Below are positions 16,221 to 61,275 of a stretch of 64,000 nucleotides of DNA, in pieces (position 1 is the stretch's first letter; each line of letters starts with the position of its first letter). The position numbers and the translations under genes were made by a program. The DNA is from Zobellia barbeyronii (GTDB lineage: Bacteria > Bacteroidota > Bacteroidia > Flavobacteriales > Flavobacteriaceae), in assembly GCF_018603515.1 (NCBI RefSeq), contig NZ_JACATN010000001.1, forward strand, positions 930,001 to 994,000, written 5' to 3'. The notes under the pieces were generated by a model, which saw only the letters and a program-made list of their open reading frames with translations, was not told the DNA's origin and made no database searches.

Positions 16221-18776
16221 TTGAAGTCGCACTATAAACTTATCTTATTTTCAATTCTTGGGGGCATCGCTTTTAACGCATGTTCAACCAAAAAAGACGC
16301 ATTTGTCAATCGTAATTGGCATGCGCTCAATACCAAGTACAATACCTTGTACAATGGCAATATTGCTTTTGAAGAAGGTCGCGAAGAACTTAAGTTAAAT
16401 TACAAAGATGACTATTGGGAAGTTCTGCCTATAGAGCGTTTGGAAGTTACGGAAGATATTAAGTTAGATTCTGAAGATAACAACCCTAATTTTATTATAG
16501 CCGAAGAAAAGGCTACTAAAGCCATACAAAAGCATAGTATGGAAATTAAAGATGAAGAGCGCAATCCGCAGACGGACGAAGCCTTTTTACTTTTAGGCAA
16601 GGCTCGTTATTTTGATCAGCGCTACATGCCTGCTCTTGAAGCTTTCAATTATATCATAAAAAAATATGACTATAGCGACAAGCTGAACGAAGCTCACATT
16701 TGGCGAGAGAAAGTAAATATTAGATTAGAAAATGATGAGTTAGCGATTAAGAATCTGAAAAGACTTTTAAAATTTGAACGCCTAACAGATCAGGAATATG
16801 CAGATACCCGTGCTATGATAGCACAAGCTTATATTAATGAGAAGGTGATTGATACTGCAGTACAACATCTTAAAGTAGCATCTCACTATACCAAAAAAAA
16901 CGAAGAAAGAGGACGATATCTATACATTATTGGGCAGTTGTACAACCAAATGGATCAAAAGGATAGTGCCAACTATGCTTTTACCAAAGTAATTGATCTT
17001 AACCGGAAATCACCCAGAGTATATATGATCAATGCGGAGATTCAGAAAATTCGCAATACTAAGATTACCTCGGAGAACAGCGAAGAAATGCTGGAGTTCC
17101 TTACAGATTTGGAAGAGAACCGTGAGAACCGCCCTTTTTTAGATAAAATTTACCGCCAAGTTGCAGAATATCATTTGGAGCAAGAGAATGACAGTTTGGC
17201 TTTGGCCTATTTCAATAAATCTCTTCGGGCTACACAGAACGAGCCTAAGCTAAATGCACTCAATTATGAGAACTTGGCTGTCTATAATTTTGACCGTAAC
17301 GAGTATAAACTATCAGGAGCGTATTATGATAGTGTGATAACGAACCTAGATGAGAATACGAAGAAATATAGATCTACCAAGAAGAAATTAGATAACCTTG
17401 AAGATGTTGTAAAATATGAAGACATCGCCCATCAAACAGATAGTATTATTACACTGTATAATAAGCCGTTAGCTGAGCGTACCGCCTTTTTTGAAGATTA
17501 TATTGCTGACTTAAAAGCCGCCAAAGCCGCAGCTGCCAAGAAAGAAGAAAGAAGGATAACCTCTGGTTTTGCGGAATTTGCAAAAAGTAAGGGAGGTAAA
17601 GAGAATAAAGGCAAATTCTATTTTTATAATCTAACCAGCTTAGGTTACGGTAAGAATGATTTTGTCCAGAGGTGGGGTAAAAGACAACTAGAGGATGATT
17701 GGAGATGGAGTAATAAAAAAAGAGTCTTACCACAAGAGAATACAGATGATGCCCTTGTGGCAAATGATACAGTACCAAGTGAAGTTGGTGAAGAAGAAAA
17801 ATTTTCTATTGATTACTATTTAAATCGAGTGCCTACAGATGTAGCTGTTATAGATAGTTTGAAGGACGAGCGAAATTTTGCCAATTACCAATTAGGATTG
17901 ATTTATAAGGAGAAGTTTAAAGAAAACCTTTTGGCAGCTGGAAAATTGGAAAACGTATTGGATTCCGACCCAGAAGAGCGATTGATTCTTCCCTCTAAAT
18001 ACAATCTGTACAAGATTTACGAAGAAGAGGGTAGTCCGCTTTTGGCGTCTATGAAAGACAATATCCTTTCTAATCATGCGGATTCTCGCTATGCGGAAAT
18101 TATACTGAACCCTAGGGCTGTTCTTGAAGATGATGCCGATAGTCCAGATGCACGTTACGCTACCTTATATCGTAAGTACAAGCAACAAGCATTTTTAGAG
18201 ACTATTACAGGTGCCGAAGAGAATATAGAGAAATACACAGGCGACCCTATTGTTCCTAAATTTGAAATGTTGAAGGCCAATGCAATTGGAAGACTAAATG
18301 GGTTTATTCCTTTTGAGGAAGCTTTGAATTACGTTGCCTTAACTTACCCCAACAATCCAGAAGGTAAGAAGGCAGAGCAAATGGTAGCCGAGCAACTTCC
18401 TAAACTAGCGGTCAAAGAATTTTCTACGGAGCTTGGCTCATCCGGTACCGGCAATTGGAAGGTTGTTTTTCCCTTTAGAAGAAGCAATGATGAAATTGCC
18501 AAAAGGGTAAAGAAAGCACTAGAAGATGCTATTGTAGATTTAAGATATAAGAATATAGTTTCAAAAGATATCTATACCTTAGAAGACCAATTTGTGGTAG
18601 TGCATGGCTTTAAGTCTAAGGATTACGCACTTGGCTTTGCAGAGCTTATAAAGTTTAACAAAGATTACCGAATTGAGAATGAGAATTTTGTTATTTTATC
18701 TACCAATTATAAAATAATTCAGGTACATAAAAACCTACAATCTTATAAAAATCAAATTTTAACCCCAAAACCTTAA
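16221..18776 (+). CDS. sprE: SprE/PorW: gliding motility and type IX secretion TPR lipoprotein
   Basis: An 851-residue lipoprotein with signal peptide ending FNAC (Cys21) and the mature start STKKDAFVNRNWHALNTKYN, typical of the SprE/PorW family. TPR-like helical repeats fill about residues 110-400, then come a charged segment and a second helical region up to about 700. The C-terminal 90 residues resemble a small domain that begins TGNWKVVFPFRRSNDEIAK. In Flavobacterium johnsoniae SprE is needed for gliding and type IX secretion; PorW is its Porphyromonas counterpart in the periplasm. The start is a TTG, since no nearby ATG precedes the signal peptide. It is followed 3 bp later by bactofilin and then by the ATP synthase genes. 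Confidence 0.85.
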   Translation: MKSHYKLILFSILGGIAFNACSTKKDAFVNRNWHALNTKYNTLYNGNIAFEEGREELKLNYKDDYWEVLPIERLEVTEDIKLDSEDNNPNFIIAEEKATKAIQKHSMEIKDEERNPQTDEAFLLLGKARYFDQRYMPALEAFNYIIKKYDYSDKLNEAHIWREKVNIRLENDELAIKNLKRLLKFERLTDQEYADTRAMIAQAYINEKVIDTAVQHLKVASHYTKKNEERGRYLYIIGQLYNQMDQKDSANYAFTKVIDLNRKSPRVYMINAEIQKIRNTKITSENSEEMLEFLTDLEENRENRPFLDKIYRQVAEYHLEQENDSLALAYFNKSLRATQNEPKLNALNYENLAVYNFDRNEYKLSGAYYDSVITNLDENTKKYRSTKKKLDNLEDVVKYEDIAHQTDSIITLYNKPLAERTAFFEDYIADLKAAKAAAAKKEERRITSGFAEFAKSKGGKENKGKFYFYNLTSLGYGKNDFVQRWGKRQLEDDWRWSNKKRVLPQENTDDALVANDTVPSEVGEEEKFSIDYYLNRVPTDVAVIDSLKDERNFANYQLGLIYKEKFKENLLAAGKLENVLDSDPEERLILPSKYNLYKIYEEEGSPLLASMKDNILSNHADSRYAEIILNPRAVLEDDADSPDARYATLYRKYKQQAFLETITGAEENIEKYTGDPIVPKFEMLKANAIGRLNGFIPFEEALNYVALTYPNNPEGKKAEQMVAEQLPKLAVKEFSTELGSSGTGNWKVVFPFRRSNDEIAKRVKKALEDAIVDLRYKNIVSKDIYTLEDQFVVVHGFKSKDYALGFAELIKFNKDYRIENENFVILSTNYKIIQVHKNLQSYKNQILTPKP

Positions 18777-18779
18777 ACA

Positions 18780-19226
18780 ATGTTTTCTGACAACAAAAAA
18801 CCACGAACTATGAACGAAATTGGCGCACAACCTAACAGAATTTCCAAGCACACAAAAATTAAAGGTGATATCGAATCTGAAGCTGATTTTAGAATCGACG
18901 GAAAATTAGACGGTAACGTAAAGACTACTGGTAAAGTAGTTATTGGTAAAGACGGCTATATCCATGGCAAAGTAGAATGTGTAAATGCAGATATTGAAGG
19001 TAGCTTCAATGGTGAGCTTTTAGTATCAGACTTACTATCTCTGAAGTCTTCGGCTGTAATTGAAGGTACTGTTTCCGTAACTAAACTGGCAGTAGAGCCA
19101 GGTGCTACGTTCAACGCTTCATGTACCATGAAAGGAAAGGGCGGTTCTCAGAATAGTTCTTCTAACAGTTTTAAATCATCTCTAAGTAGTTCTAATAGAA
19201 ATAATGAGCCAGCAAAAGCCTCGTGA
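18780..19226 (+). CDS. Bactofilin family polymer-forming cytoskeletal protein
   Basis: A 148-residue protein with a central bactofilin beta-helix (about 23-118) made of short repeats such as GDIESEADFRIDGKLDGNV and VIGKDGYIHGKVEC, flanked by unstructured tails; the C-terminal tail is Ser/Asn-rich. Bactofilins polymerise without nucleotide into filaments at the inner membrane and often organise cell-wall enzymes. The gene starts 3 bp after sprE and its end overlaps the AtpZ-like gene by 23 bp, so it is translated from the same message. Confidence 0.92.
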   Translation: MFSDNKKPRTMNEIGAQPNRISKHTKIKGDIESEADFRIDGKLDGNVKTTGKVVIGKDGYIHGKVECVNADIEGSFNGELLVSDLLSLKSSAVIEGTVSVTKLAVEPGATFNASCTMKGKGGSQNSSSNSFKSSLSSSNRNNEPAKAS

Positions 19227-50910: not shown

Positions 50911-50940
50911 TTCACAACAGATTAATGCTGCTTCACAACA
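50911..50940 (+). promoter_or_regulatory. Paired 9-bp direct repeats, LytTR-like operator (locus 1)
   Basis: TTCACAACA occurs at 50911-50919 and 50932-50940, a 21-bp period (two helical turns), the arrangement bound by LytTR-domain response regulators. The base sequence matches the published LytTR consensus only partly. The same pair, with the same spacing, occurs at 61032-61061. The gap of 53 bp to the shared AGTC...CCCAAAT block is consistent with activation of a promoter near 50960-50990. Confidence 0.55.
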
Positions 50941-51033
50941 AGATTTTTTTTAGTTAAGGATTAGGTACTATTTTTATAGTATTATTAATTGAAAGTCGCG
51001 TCCCAAATTCGATTTTGTCCAAAACTAAAACCT

Positions 51034-51135
51034 ATGGAAGCCCAAATTAACCAATCATCAGAAGAAATTCAAGTGTACAAAAATGATTTTTTCAGCGGAA
51101 TAGTAATGCTGGCTAGAAAATTGTTTATGCTTTAA
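51034..51135 (+). CDS. Small ORF of 33 codons
   Basis: An ATG-initiated frame for a 33-residue peptide beginning MEAQINQSSEEIQVYKNDFF and ending in the hydrophobic/basic stretch GIVMLARKLFML. The acidic-polar first half and the hydrophobic last third could form an amphipathic or short membrane-associated helix. It lies between the paired direct repeats and a terminator that closely follows its stop, which supports a dedicated message. No homologue is recognised and translation is not shown. Confidence 0.4.
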   Translation: MEAQINQSSEEIQVYKNDFFSGIVMLARKLFML

Positions 51136-60923: not shown

Positions 60924-60955
60924 GATACATTGCGGAATACATGGAGATTAATTTG

Positions 60956-60986
60956 AAGCCTTTGCAGTTTGCGAGGGCTTTTTTAT
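60956..60986 (+). terminator. Terminator of the PfpI gene
   Basis: AAGCC (60956-60960) pairs with GGGCTT (60975-60980) with an imperfect inner stem, followed by TTTTT. Confidence 0.6.
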
Positions 60987-61031: not shown

Positions 61032-61061
61032 TTCACAACAGAGTTGGGTTAGTTCACAACA
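61032..61061 (+). promoter_or_regulatory. Paired 9-bp direct repeats, LytTR-like operator (locus 2)
   Basis: TTCACAACA at 61032-61040 and 61053-61061, again with a 21-bp period and the same GA after the first copy as at 50911. A shared AGTC...CCCAAAT block follows at 61114-61130, 53 bp downstream; at locus 1 this distance is 54 bp. Confidence 0.55.
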
Positions 61062-61113
61062 ATATTTTAGAGAAGAGCTAAAACGGTCATAAGTTTACAG
61101 TGTAATTAAGTAA

Positions 61114-61275
61114 TAGTCTTGACCCCAAATCTACTCTAGAACTTAACCGAAACAAGTAACGAATCCCAAGTCCGCTACTTAACCTACTGAAGCTTACAAA
61201 AACACACCGGTCCCCACCGGAAAATCAAAAAAACCTACTTAAAAAGAAAAGCCCCAATTAGGGGCTTTCTTTTTG
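61114..61275 (+). ncRNA. Candidate small non-coding RNA
   Basis: About 160 nt without any ATG, beginning near the shared block AGTCTTGACCCCAAAT and ending in a strong terminator. It is C-rich and G-poor, with a hairpin CCGGT-CCCC-ACCGG (61207-61220) that shows CCCC in its loop and several CCCAA single-stranded stretches. The paired repeats upstream suggest tightly controlled transcription. The 5' end is an estimate. Confidence 0.45.
61248..61275. terminator. Bidirectional terminator
   Basis: AAAGCCCC (61248-61255), loop AATTA, GGGGCTTT (61261-61268), with T-rich sequence on the plus side (CTTTTTG) and also on the minus side. It can serve both the candidate sRNA and the minus-strand beta-propeller gene that ends at 61292. 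Confidence 0.85.

Follow-up and report, generated by a model that had tools for sequence, protein, structure and literature searches.

What is transcribed from the locus at 61032, and why should it share its control region with a locus that encodes a peptide? These questions arise from a 64,000-nucleotide stretch of the Zobellia barbeyronii genome (contig NZ_JACATN010000001.1, positions 930,001 to 994,000, referred to here as the window), in which two loci, at 50911 and 61032, carry the same pair of direct repeats. The original prediction saw in the second of these a candidate small RNA (sRNA), and in the two together a sign of a regulon of short RNAs. Our comparisons suggest that 61103-61272 is very probably a real sRNA gene belonging to a conserved family and linked to a response regulator of the LytTR type, and the existence in this genome of a regulon of short RNAs under the repeat pair is supported by the sequence data described below.

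The repeat pair, its putative regulator and the RNA families

The repeat unit TTCACAACA occurs only four times in the window (50911/50932 and 61032/61053) and never on its other strand. Allowing up to three mismatches, units paired over a 12-bp spacer are found at exactly two sites, 50911 and 61032; shuffled versions of the window held 0.13 such pairs on average and never two (0/100 shuffles). As predicted, the two pairs are alike in the 9-bp unit, the spacer and the GA that follows the first repeat. At both loci this box begins 58 bp upstream of a -7 element, which we take to be of the Bacteroidota TANNTTTG type. The expectation that more copies would exist elsewhere in the 4.98 Mb genome was borne out: there are five exact pairs, and the box combined with TANNTTT at offset 58 (at most 3 mismatches) gives 19 matches against 0 for the reversed control, while the box without the -7 element gives 34 against 11. 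Judged by inspection of the downstream sequence, the 19 promoters precede four RNAs of the family represented in the window (family A), three of a second family (B), one of a third (C), ten protein genes and one unclear context, so that the forecast regulon of short RNAs has at least three family-B members in this genome and includes protein genes as well. Among the latter are a 33-amino-acid (33-aa) peptide (51034), a sigma-70-like factor, a protein with a domain associated with the type IX secretion system, a sorting-domain protein and other small or secreted-looking proteins. An RNase R-like gene lies about 560 bp downstream of one of the promoters.

The candidate regulator is a response regulator (RR) with receiver and LytTR domains (Pfam), encoded at C22:254226-254975 next to a gene with TPR and histidine-kinase domains, and one family-B box sits between the two genes. 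The same order of RR, box and kinase, judged by protein similarity, is also present in Allomuricauda (L086), Flagellimonas (L123, L138), Maribacter (L106) and Robiginitalea (L181). Among 299 Flavobacteriaceae genomes, 67 have an RR orthologue (E at most 1e-60), 69 have a box promoter and 66 have both (Fisher test 1.8e-61, kinship ignored); by genus the figures are 48 and 49 of 203. The exceptions are one genome with RR and no box (G241) and three with a box and no RR (G191, G226, G324). The reversed control pattern had a single match in all 299 genomes. LytTR repeats elsewhere are described as 9-bp units, mostly with 12-bp spacers, near the -35 region (PMC6193735). Taking 9-bp repeats with an 11-13 bp spacer just upstream of -35 as the mark of a LytTR regulon, we find here a 12-bp spacer and a second repeat that ends 28 bp before the -7 element; the half-site TTCACAACA itself is unlike the repeats tabulated in PMC6193735. 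The second mark, a regulator tied to the box, is suggested by the box in 66 of the 67 RR genomes and by its place between the RR and kinase genes. In Lachnospiraceae, an identical repeat pair is found upstream of LytTR regulator genes (confirmed by Pfam) and of other genes (L100:5216 and 7452, L112:6038 and 3755). These boxes have CGATATAA or CGAAATAG at offset 58, perhaps a flagellar-sigma -10.

The window sRNA has three strong paralogues in the genome, making family A a four-copy family, and 4-5 family-A matches are present in all 8 other genomes of the genus that were searched. A covariance model, which had been proposed as a check and was built on the first 86 nt of homologous loci, recovered family A in 31/299 genomes and 24/203 genera (E 0.001); 30 of the 31 genomes have RR. 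Thirty family-A loci from 30 genomes, one per genome, were fetched by the RNA body alone, and all of them have the box (at most 3 mismatches) 67-73 bp upstream. In 24 the -7 element stands at offset 58 exactly, and no shuffled upstream sequence gave as good a match to the box (200 trials each). A terminator-like hairpin follows at 34 of 35 family-A sites, and the sequence of the remaining locus is incomplete. Synteny is kept as well: the family-A RNA of L153 lies between the DJ-1 and VPS10-type genes, as in the window, and those of L141 and L187 lie beside the gene that adjoins tandem copies in the Zobellia genome. Weak matches to a 104-nt query in G014, G024 and G031 were set aside as unrelated: the four fetched loci have no box (at most 2 mismatches), and the family-A model also misses these three genomes. 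Rfam gave no match at the gathering score for the whole window and 9 related loci, and its matches below that score (18 rows) were judged to be chance.

Family B is more widely distributed. Its 25-nt core CATTTTCATATAGTGTTCTCGTAAA (at most 3 mismatches) occurs in 57/299 genomes and 41/203 genera, with 0 in the control, and all 57 genomes have RR. A box with no more than 4 mismatches lies within 190 nt of each of 29 copies fetched by sequence alone, and in 25 the -7 element is also present at offset 58. The Zobellia genome holds six copies (at most 3 mismatches), three of which have been located. In some genomes family B is arranged in tandem; L370 has 4 copies at steps of about 244 nt. With a core nearly unchanged across 41 genera and confined, among the 299 genomes, to those with RR, this RNA deserves particular attention for its own sake. 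Family C, seen in 6 loci, has TACATTCG at the -7 position followed by a short RNA with a terminator, and 5 of the 6 loci also hold a family-A site.

C-rich loops in the RNAs and in mRNA leaders

Folded singly, family-A sequences mostly form hairpin I, whose tip shows GA-CCCCAAA-UC, then hairpin II with a CCC(C)A(A) loop, sometimes hairpin III, and the terminator. The CCC(C)AAA motif recurs inside these RNAs at about positions 60 and 100, the second occurrence with covarying stems. The hairpin exposing CCCC in its loop and the terminator, both foreseen for the window locus, are listed in Table 1. Including the terminator, the entire window RNA has a fold z of -3.37, and its first 83 nt alone -1.21. 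RNAalifold gave only the invariant hairpin I, therefore hairpin II was tested by sequence swaps in which each arm was scored with its own and with foreign partners; identical sequences were removed before each count, and three sequences lacking motif II were excluded. Own partners paired far better, with z 8.8 over 47 unique cases and z 6.6 over 30 divergent cases (0/3000 swaps each). A stricter test with a 7-nt loop gave z 7.3 in the first set (z 6.2 when restricted to hairpins II and III, z 1.7 for hairpin I) and was not significant in the two leader sets. Since it also failed in the set found by R2, the idea of a fixed heptaloop was dropped and we claim a C-rich loop, the length of which varies.

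The motif is not confined to the RNAs. CCCAAAT follows the repeats by 62 and 63 bp at 51002 and 61124, as predicted; the AGTC included in the predicted block is not conserved in homologues, where the preserved part is CCCAAAT(C). The original prediction had named absence of the block from close relatives as a ground for giving it up, and the block is present in them. The CCCAAAT shared by the two loci is a real element and no coincidence.

We looked at mRNA leaders in 80 box promoters hand-picked among the matches listed for 16 further genomes, with most known family-A sites and some others omitted, and the resulting classes (13 B, 11 A/C-like, 50 mRNA, 6 unclear) are not to be taken as frequencies. 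CCCAAA is present in 36 of the 67 non-B transcripts, while the other 19 arrangements of its letters reach at most 13 and TTTGGG is found in 3. One near-duplicate was removed to leave 49 leaders; in 15 of them we find CCCAAATC, the commonest of the 280 arrangements of its eight letters (the next, with 7, is its own shift), and TTTGGG occurs in 3 of these regulon leaders, to which the count applies. In the 18 leaders with CCCAAA, the sequences on either side of the motif pair better with each other than with swapped partners (z 4.0, 1/4000). In six of the 49 leaders the frame is preceded by a terminator-like hairpin. After their removal CCCAAATC is still the commonest of 280 (11/43 leaders), TTTGGG is found in 2/43, and the pairing of the flanks persists (z 3.2, 10/4000).

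For the 33-aa frame of the 50911 locus, comparing 8 distinct sequences in pairs gives a total of 247 synonymous against 72 non-synonymous codon differences, and no conserved frame is found at 61032, in agreement with the original view that one locus is coding and the other is not. The peptide has no Pfam match at E 0.01, and the complete leader of this locus folds no more stably than its shuffles. In a 107-aa sorting-domain gene, UUGA-YCCCAAA-UCAA lies 5-6 nt before the AUG in 12 loci from 5 genera. L206:1352-1447 (-) and the next frame form one box-driven unit with two proteins of 32-33 aa. GGA-UCCCAAA-UCC stands before the second of these, and other genomes also have similar small proteins.

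A further group is formed by nine boxes on the kinase side of RR; CCCAAATC lies downstream of 8 of them, and a terminator-like hairpin likewise of 8. Because of these hairpins we do not read them as plain kinase leaders; they look like promoters of a further short RNA or of an attenuated kinase leader. In L425, L443 and L448 the short terminated transcripts combine CCCAAATC with a stretch resembling the RNA B core (CATATAGTGTT in L425, TATAGTGTTCTC in L448), as if two elements had been fused. In L084, L123, L138 and other Allomuricauda and Flagellimonas loci, the interval from the second box to the kinase gene holds a conserved stretch with ACCCCATAC and GGGGC blocks that could pair.

Several observations weigh against the common factor proposed below, and we collect them here. 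Hairpin I is nearly invariant and for that reason untestable by covariation: 0/6 pairs covary by RNAalifold on the MAFFT alignment, and its swap test gave z 0.1. The strict, fixed-register test with a 7-nt loop gave a non-significant z of 1.6 in the set found by R2. Only 14/43 leaders carry CCCAAA, so it is not required for membership in the regulon, and three folded leaders were no more stable than shuffles (3/3). Membership of the mRNA class was decided by an approximate criterion, a frame of 30 codons after ATG, and L443, placed in this class, may also be a terminated RNA. As for the RNA itself, G333 has a weak family-A match and no RR, and 37 genomes with RR show no family A.

A search of the genome with the hairpin model scored 150 of 2093 first-look candidates; its weak matches, for instance those ahead of gldM-like and bactofilin-like genes (E 2-3.5), were rejected as being at chance level. 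One of them lies in the window, where a CCCCAAA hairpin-like match at 18754-18781 (E 3.5, chance level) ends just before the start codon of a gene that we take to be bactofilin-like. As to the surroundings of the 61032 locus, the upstream gene is of the DJ-1/PfpI type and has its own terminator-like hairpin, and the convergent gene downstream has a sortilin/VPS10 match.

Table 1. Positions of the predicted features at the two window loci and of three RNA B cores.
Feature	Position	Strand	Basis or remark
Activator box TTCACAACA-N12-TTCACAACA	61032..61061	+	pattern search of window and genome; box at 30/30 family-A loci
-7 promoter element TAAGTTTA	61090..61097	+	offset 58 from box start; 19 genome matches vs 0 control
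Predicted sRNA, family A, about 170 nt	61103..61272	+	start inferred from -7 element and conserved TAATTAAG
Hairpin I (UUAAGU/ACUUAA), GA-CCCCAAA-UC at tip	61106..61146, loop 61123-61129	+	folding
Hairpin II, AAGUA/UACUU, loop CCC at 61165-61167	61154..61180	+	compensating stem changes in homologues
Hairpin III CCGGU-CCCC-ACCGG	61207..61220	+	only part of family A has it
Intrinsic terminator	61248..61275	+	hairpin 61248-61268; match also faces convergent gene
Terminator-like hairpin after DJ-1/PfpI gene	60955..60981	+	separates upstream gene from sRNA promoter
Activator box, sister locus	50911..50940	+	identical repeat pair
-7 element TATTTTTA	50969..50976	+	offset 58
mRNA leader hairpin AAAGUCGCG-UCCCAAA-UUCGAUUUU	50992..51016	+	8/9 pairs; kept in 4 distinct versions
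33-aa peptide gene MEAQINQSSEEIQVYKNDFFSGIVMLARKLFML	51034..51135	+	codon differences among orthologues
RNA B core copy	L012:1395-1419	-	
RNA B core copy	L014:1410-1434	-	
RNA B core copy	L202:1597-1621	+	

A proposed common factor and the competing explanations

Comparative genomics establishes the box, its link to the regulator, the RNA family, the terminator, the leader element and the covariation of hairpin II. From these we infer transcription, binding of the regulator, the factor, its titration and the direction of regulation in the following scheme. The LytTR response regulator would activate the sRNA promoter by binding to the direct repeats (9-N12-9), which lie some 40-70 bp before the start. 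RNA A, one of four paralogues, would display C-rich CCC(C)AAA loops on its hairpins, and the same element, often in a hairpin, stands near the 5' end of regulon mRNAs, including those of small and secreted proteins, and in other genera near that of a short transcript upstream of the gene for the partner kinase. One putative trans-acting factor, most likely an RNA-binding protein, would recognise the element in sRNAs and leaders alike, and when the two-component system is on, the multicopy sRNAs would titrate the factor away from the leaders. We arrive at this reading since the sense-strand element is common to the multicopy sRNAs and to mRNAs of the same regulon. The simplest account is that a single factor reads both the loops and the leader elements and that the sRNAs serve as its decoys, and we give this an even chance. 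The wider proposal is more tentative, and we hold it a little short of even: Flavobacteriaceae may possess an undescribed global post-transcriptional system in which LytTR-driven sRNAs (A and the hyperconserved B and C) and mRNAs, together with an RNA-binding protein reading CCC(C)AAA hairpins in sRNAs, leaders and the kinase-side transcript, tune small and type IX-secreted surface proteins, an analogue of Csr/Rsm that is unrelated to it.

A different possibility is that the LytTR-driven sRNA pairs directly with its targets, the CCC(C)AAA loops being redundant seeds for UUUGGGG in target mRNAs. Multiple copies, two-component control and repeated C-rich loops are also features of the Listeria LhrC RNAs (PMC4132741), and the FopS sRNAs of Bacteroides pair near start codons (PMC11697453). 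Direct pairing leaves the sense-orientation motif in leaders of the same regulon unexplained; TTTGGG is found in just 3/67 transcripts under the same control, a count limited to regulon transcripts. Moreover, flavobacteria make little use of Shine-Dalgarno pairing. The suggestion that the C-rich loops target G-rich leaders is therefore not favoured, as it is the sense CCCAAA and not TTTGGG that is enriched in regulon transcripts, and we consider direct pairing unlikely, though a serious candidate.

The element CCCAAATC near the transcript start might also act in cis on transcription or RNA stability, through a pause, protection of the 5' end or a further DNA regulator, its role in the sRNAs being just to stabilise the RNA. 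Its distance from the promoter is indeed fairly fixed (offset from the box 82-90 in 15 of the 18 CCCAAA leaders, about 92 for hairpin I of the sRNAs). Such a role does not fit with the repetition of the motif at about 60 and 100 within the RNAs, the second time in covarying stems, and the pairing of leader flanks (z 4.0 and 3.2) points to RNA, so we think cis action rather improbable. That the sRNA is real and LytTR-driven with a function unrelated to the leaders, the element being a promoter-proximal relic of duplicated loci, seems improbable as well: paralogous duplication is evident, yet the leaders that share the element differ in the sequence around it.

Could the RNA be a short coding one? 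Many homologues do contain a GTG frame of 9-41 codons, mostly starting near nucleotide 8. However, the frame varies in length, 2 of 33 homologues have no closed frame, and conservation tracks the loops rather than codons. The window copy lacks the GTG start; as predicted no ATG occurs before the terminator (61062-61242), the sole ATG, GTG or TTG in 61103-61242 is a TTG at 61119, and the longest frame, from TTG, has 6 codons. A coding role is thus very improbable. Finally, a chance resemblance of repeats and block with no functional unit behind it has a negligible probability in view of the shuffles, the 19 to 0 matches against the control, the conservation of family A in 31/299 genomes, the co-occurrence with RR and the box at 30/30 loci.

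Comparison with known regulatory systems

It is instructive to compare the general features of this system to the Gac/Rsm and BarA/Csr systems, in which a two-component system acts through an upstream activating box on redundant sRNAs (RsmX/Y/Z, CsrB/C, with the protein RsmA/CsrA) whose loop motif is also found in leaders near the start codon. The likeness lies in the upstream box, in several redundant sRNAs and in a hairpin motif shared by multicopy sRNAs and leaders; the last is found here too, the leader hairpins being weaker evidence than hairpin II of the sRNA. There are several differences. Firstly, the regulator here is of the LytTR type and the box is 9-N12-9. Secondly, the mRNAs studied here are themselves box-driven. 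Thirdly, the loops are CCC(C)AAA instead of GGA. CsrA (PF02599) has no match in the Zobellia genome, and 3/14 control genomes match. The working logic is alike, and membership fails on both defining features tested, the CsrA protein and the GGA loops.

The LisR regulator of Listeria is not known as a LytTR protein. The LhrC1-5 RNAs of this organism are five copies, all dependent on LisRK, with three redundant UCCC sites (PMC4132741). Multiple copies and two-component control, the latter inferred in our case from the box and its co-occurrence with RR, are the common ground. The difference is that the UCCC loops of LhrC find their pairing partner in a G-rich stretch of lapB (PMC4132741), whereas here the sense motif recurs in the leaders of the regulon; direct antisense action of the LhrC kind is possible.

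The agr P3-RNAIII system is nearer in its regulator, as AgrA, a LytTR protein, acts at direct repeats to drive a regulatory RNA that has C-rich loops. RNAIII is a single, partly coding RNA of about 500 nt in staphylococci. The likeness, compared by description only, is that of a LytTR regulator and a C-rich-loop RNA driven from direct repeats; PMC4132741 refers to a UCCC motif in RNAIII.

Within Bacteroidota, FopS/GibS with RbpB of Bacteroides is likewise a multicopy sRNA family with an intrinsic terminator. FopS has 14 copies, 9 of them intergenic, acts by pairing, and has a single-stranded 5' seed that is followed by one terminator hairpin (PMC11697453). Family A departs from this 5'-seed architecture with two to three hairpins before the terminator in most folds, and the description of FopS in PMC11697453 contains no LytTR box. 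Rfp18 of F. psychrophilum, compared by description only, is similar as a conserved structured Flavobacterium sRNA that affects protease mRNAs; LytTR does not occur in the main text of its report.

A 16-nt stretch of the box, the 20-nt core of RNA B and two stretches of RNA A are printed in none of the literature searched, and topical literature searches gave no description of the regulon, though subscription papers or supplements could still contain one. Bacteroidota rely on few of the RNA regulators known from textbooks. How they coordinate their surface and secretion programmes post-transcriptionally becomes a directly testable question now that a regulator can be named, together with its exact DNA box, three families of short RNAs and a leader element.
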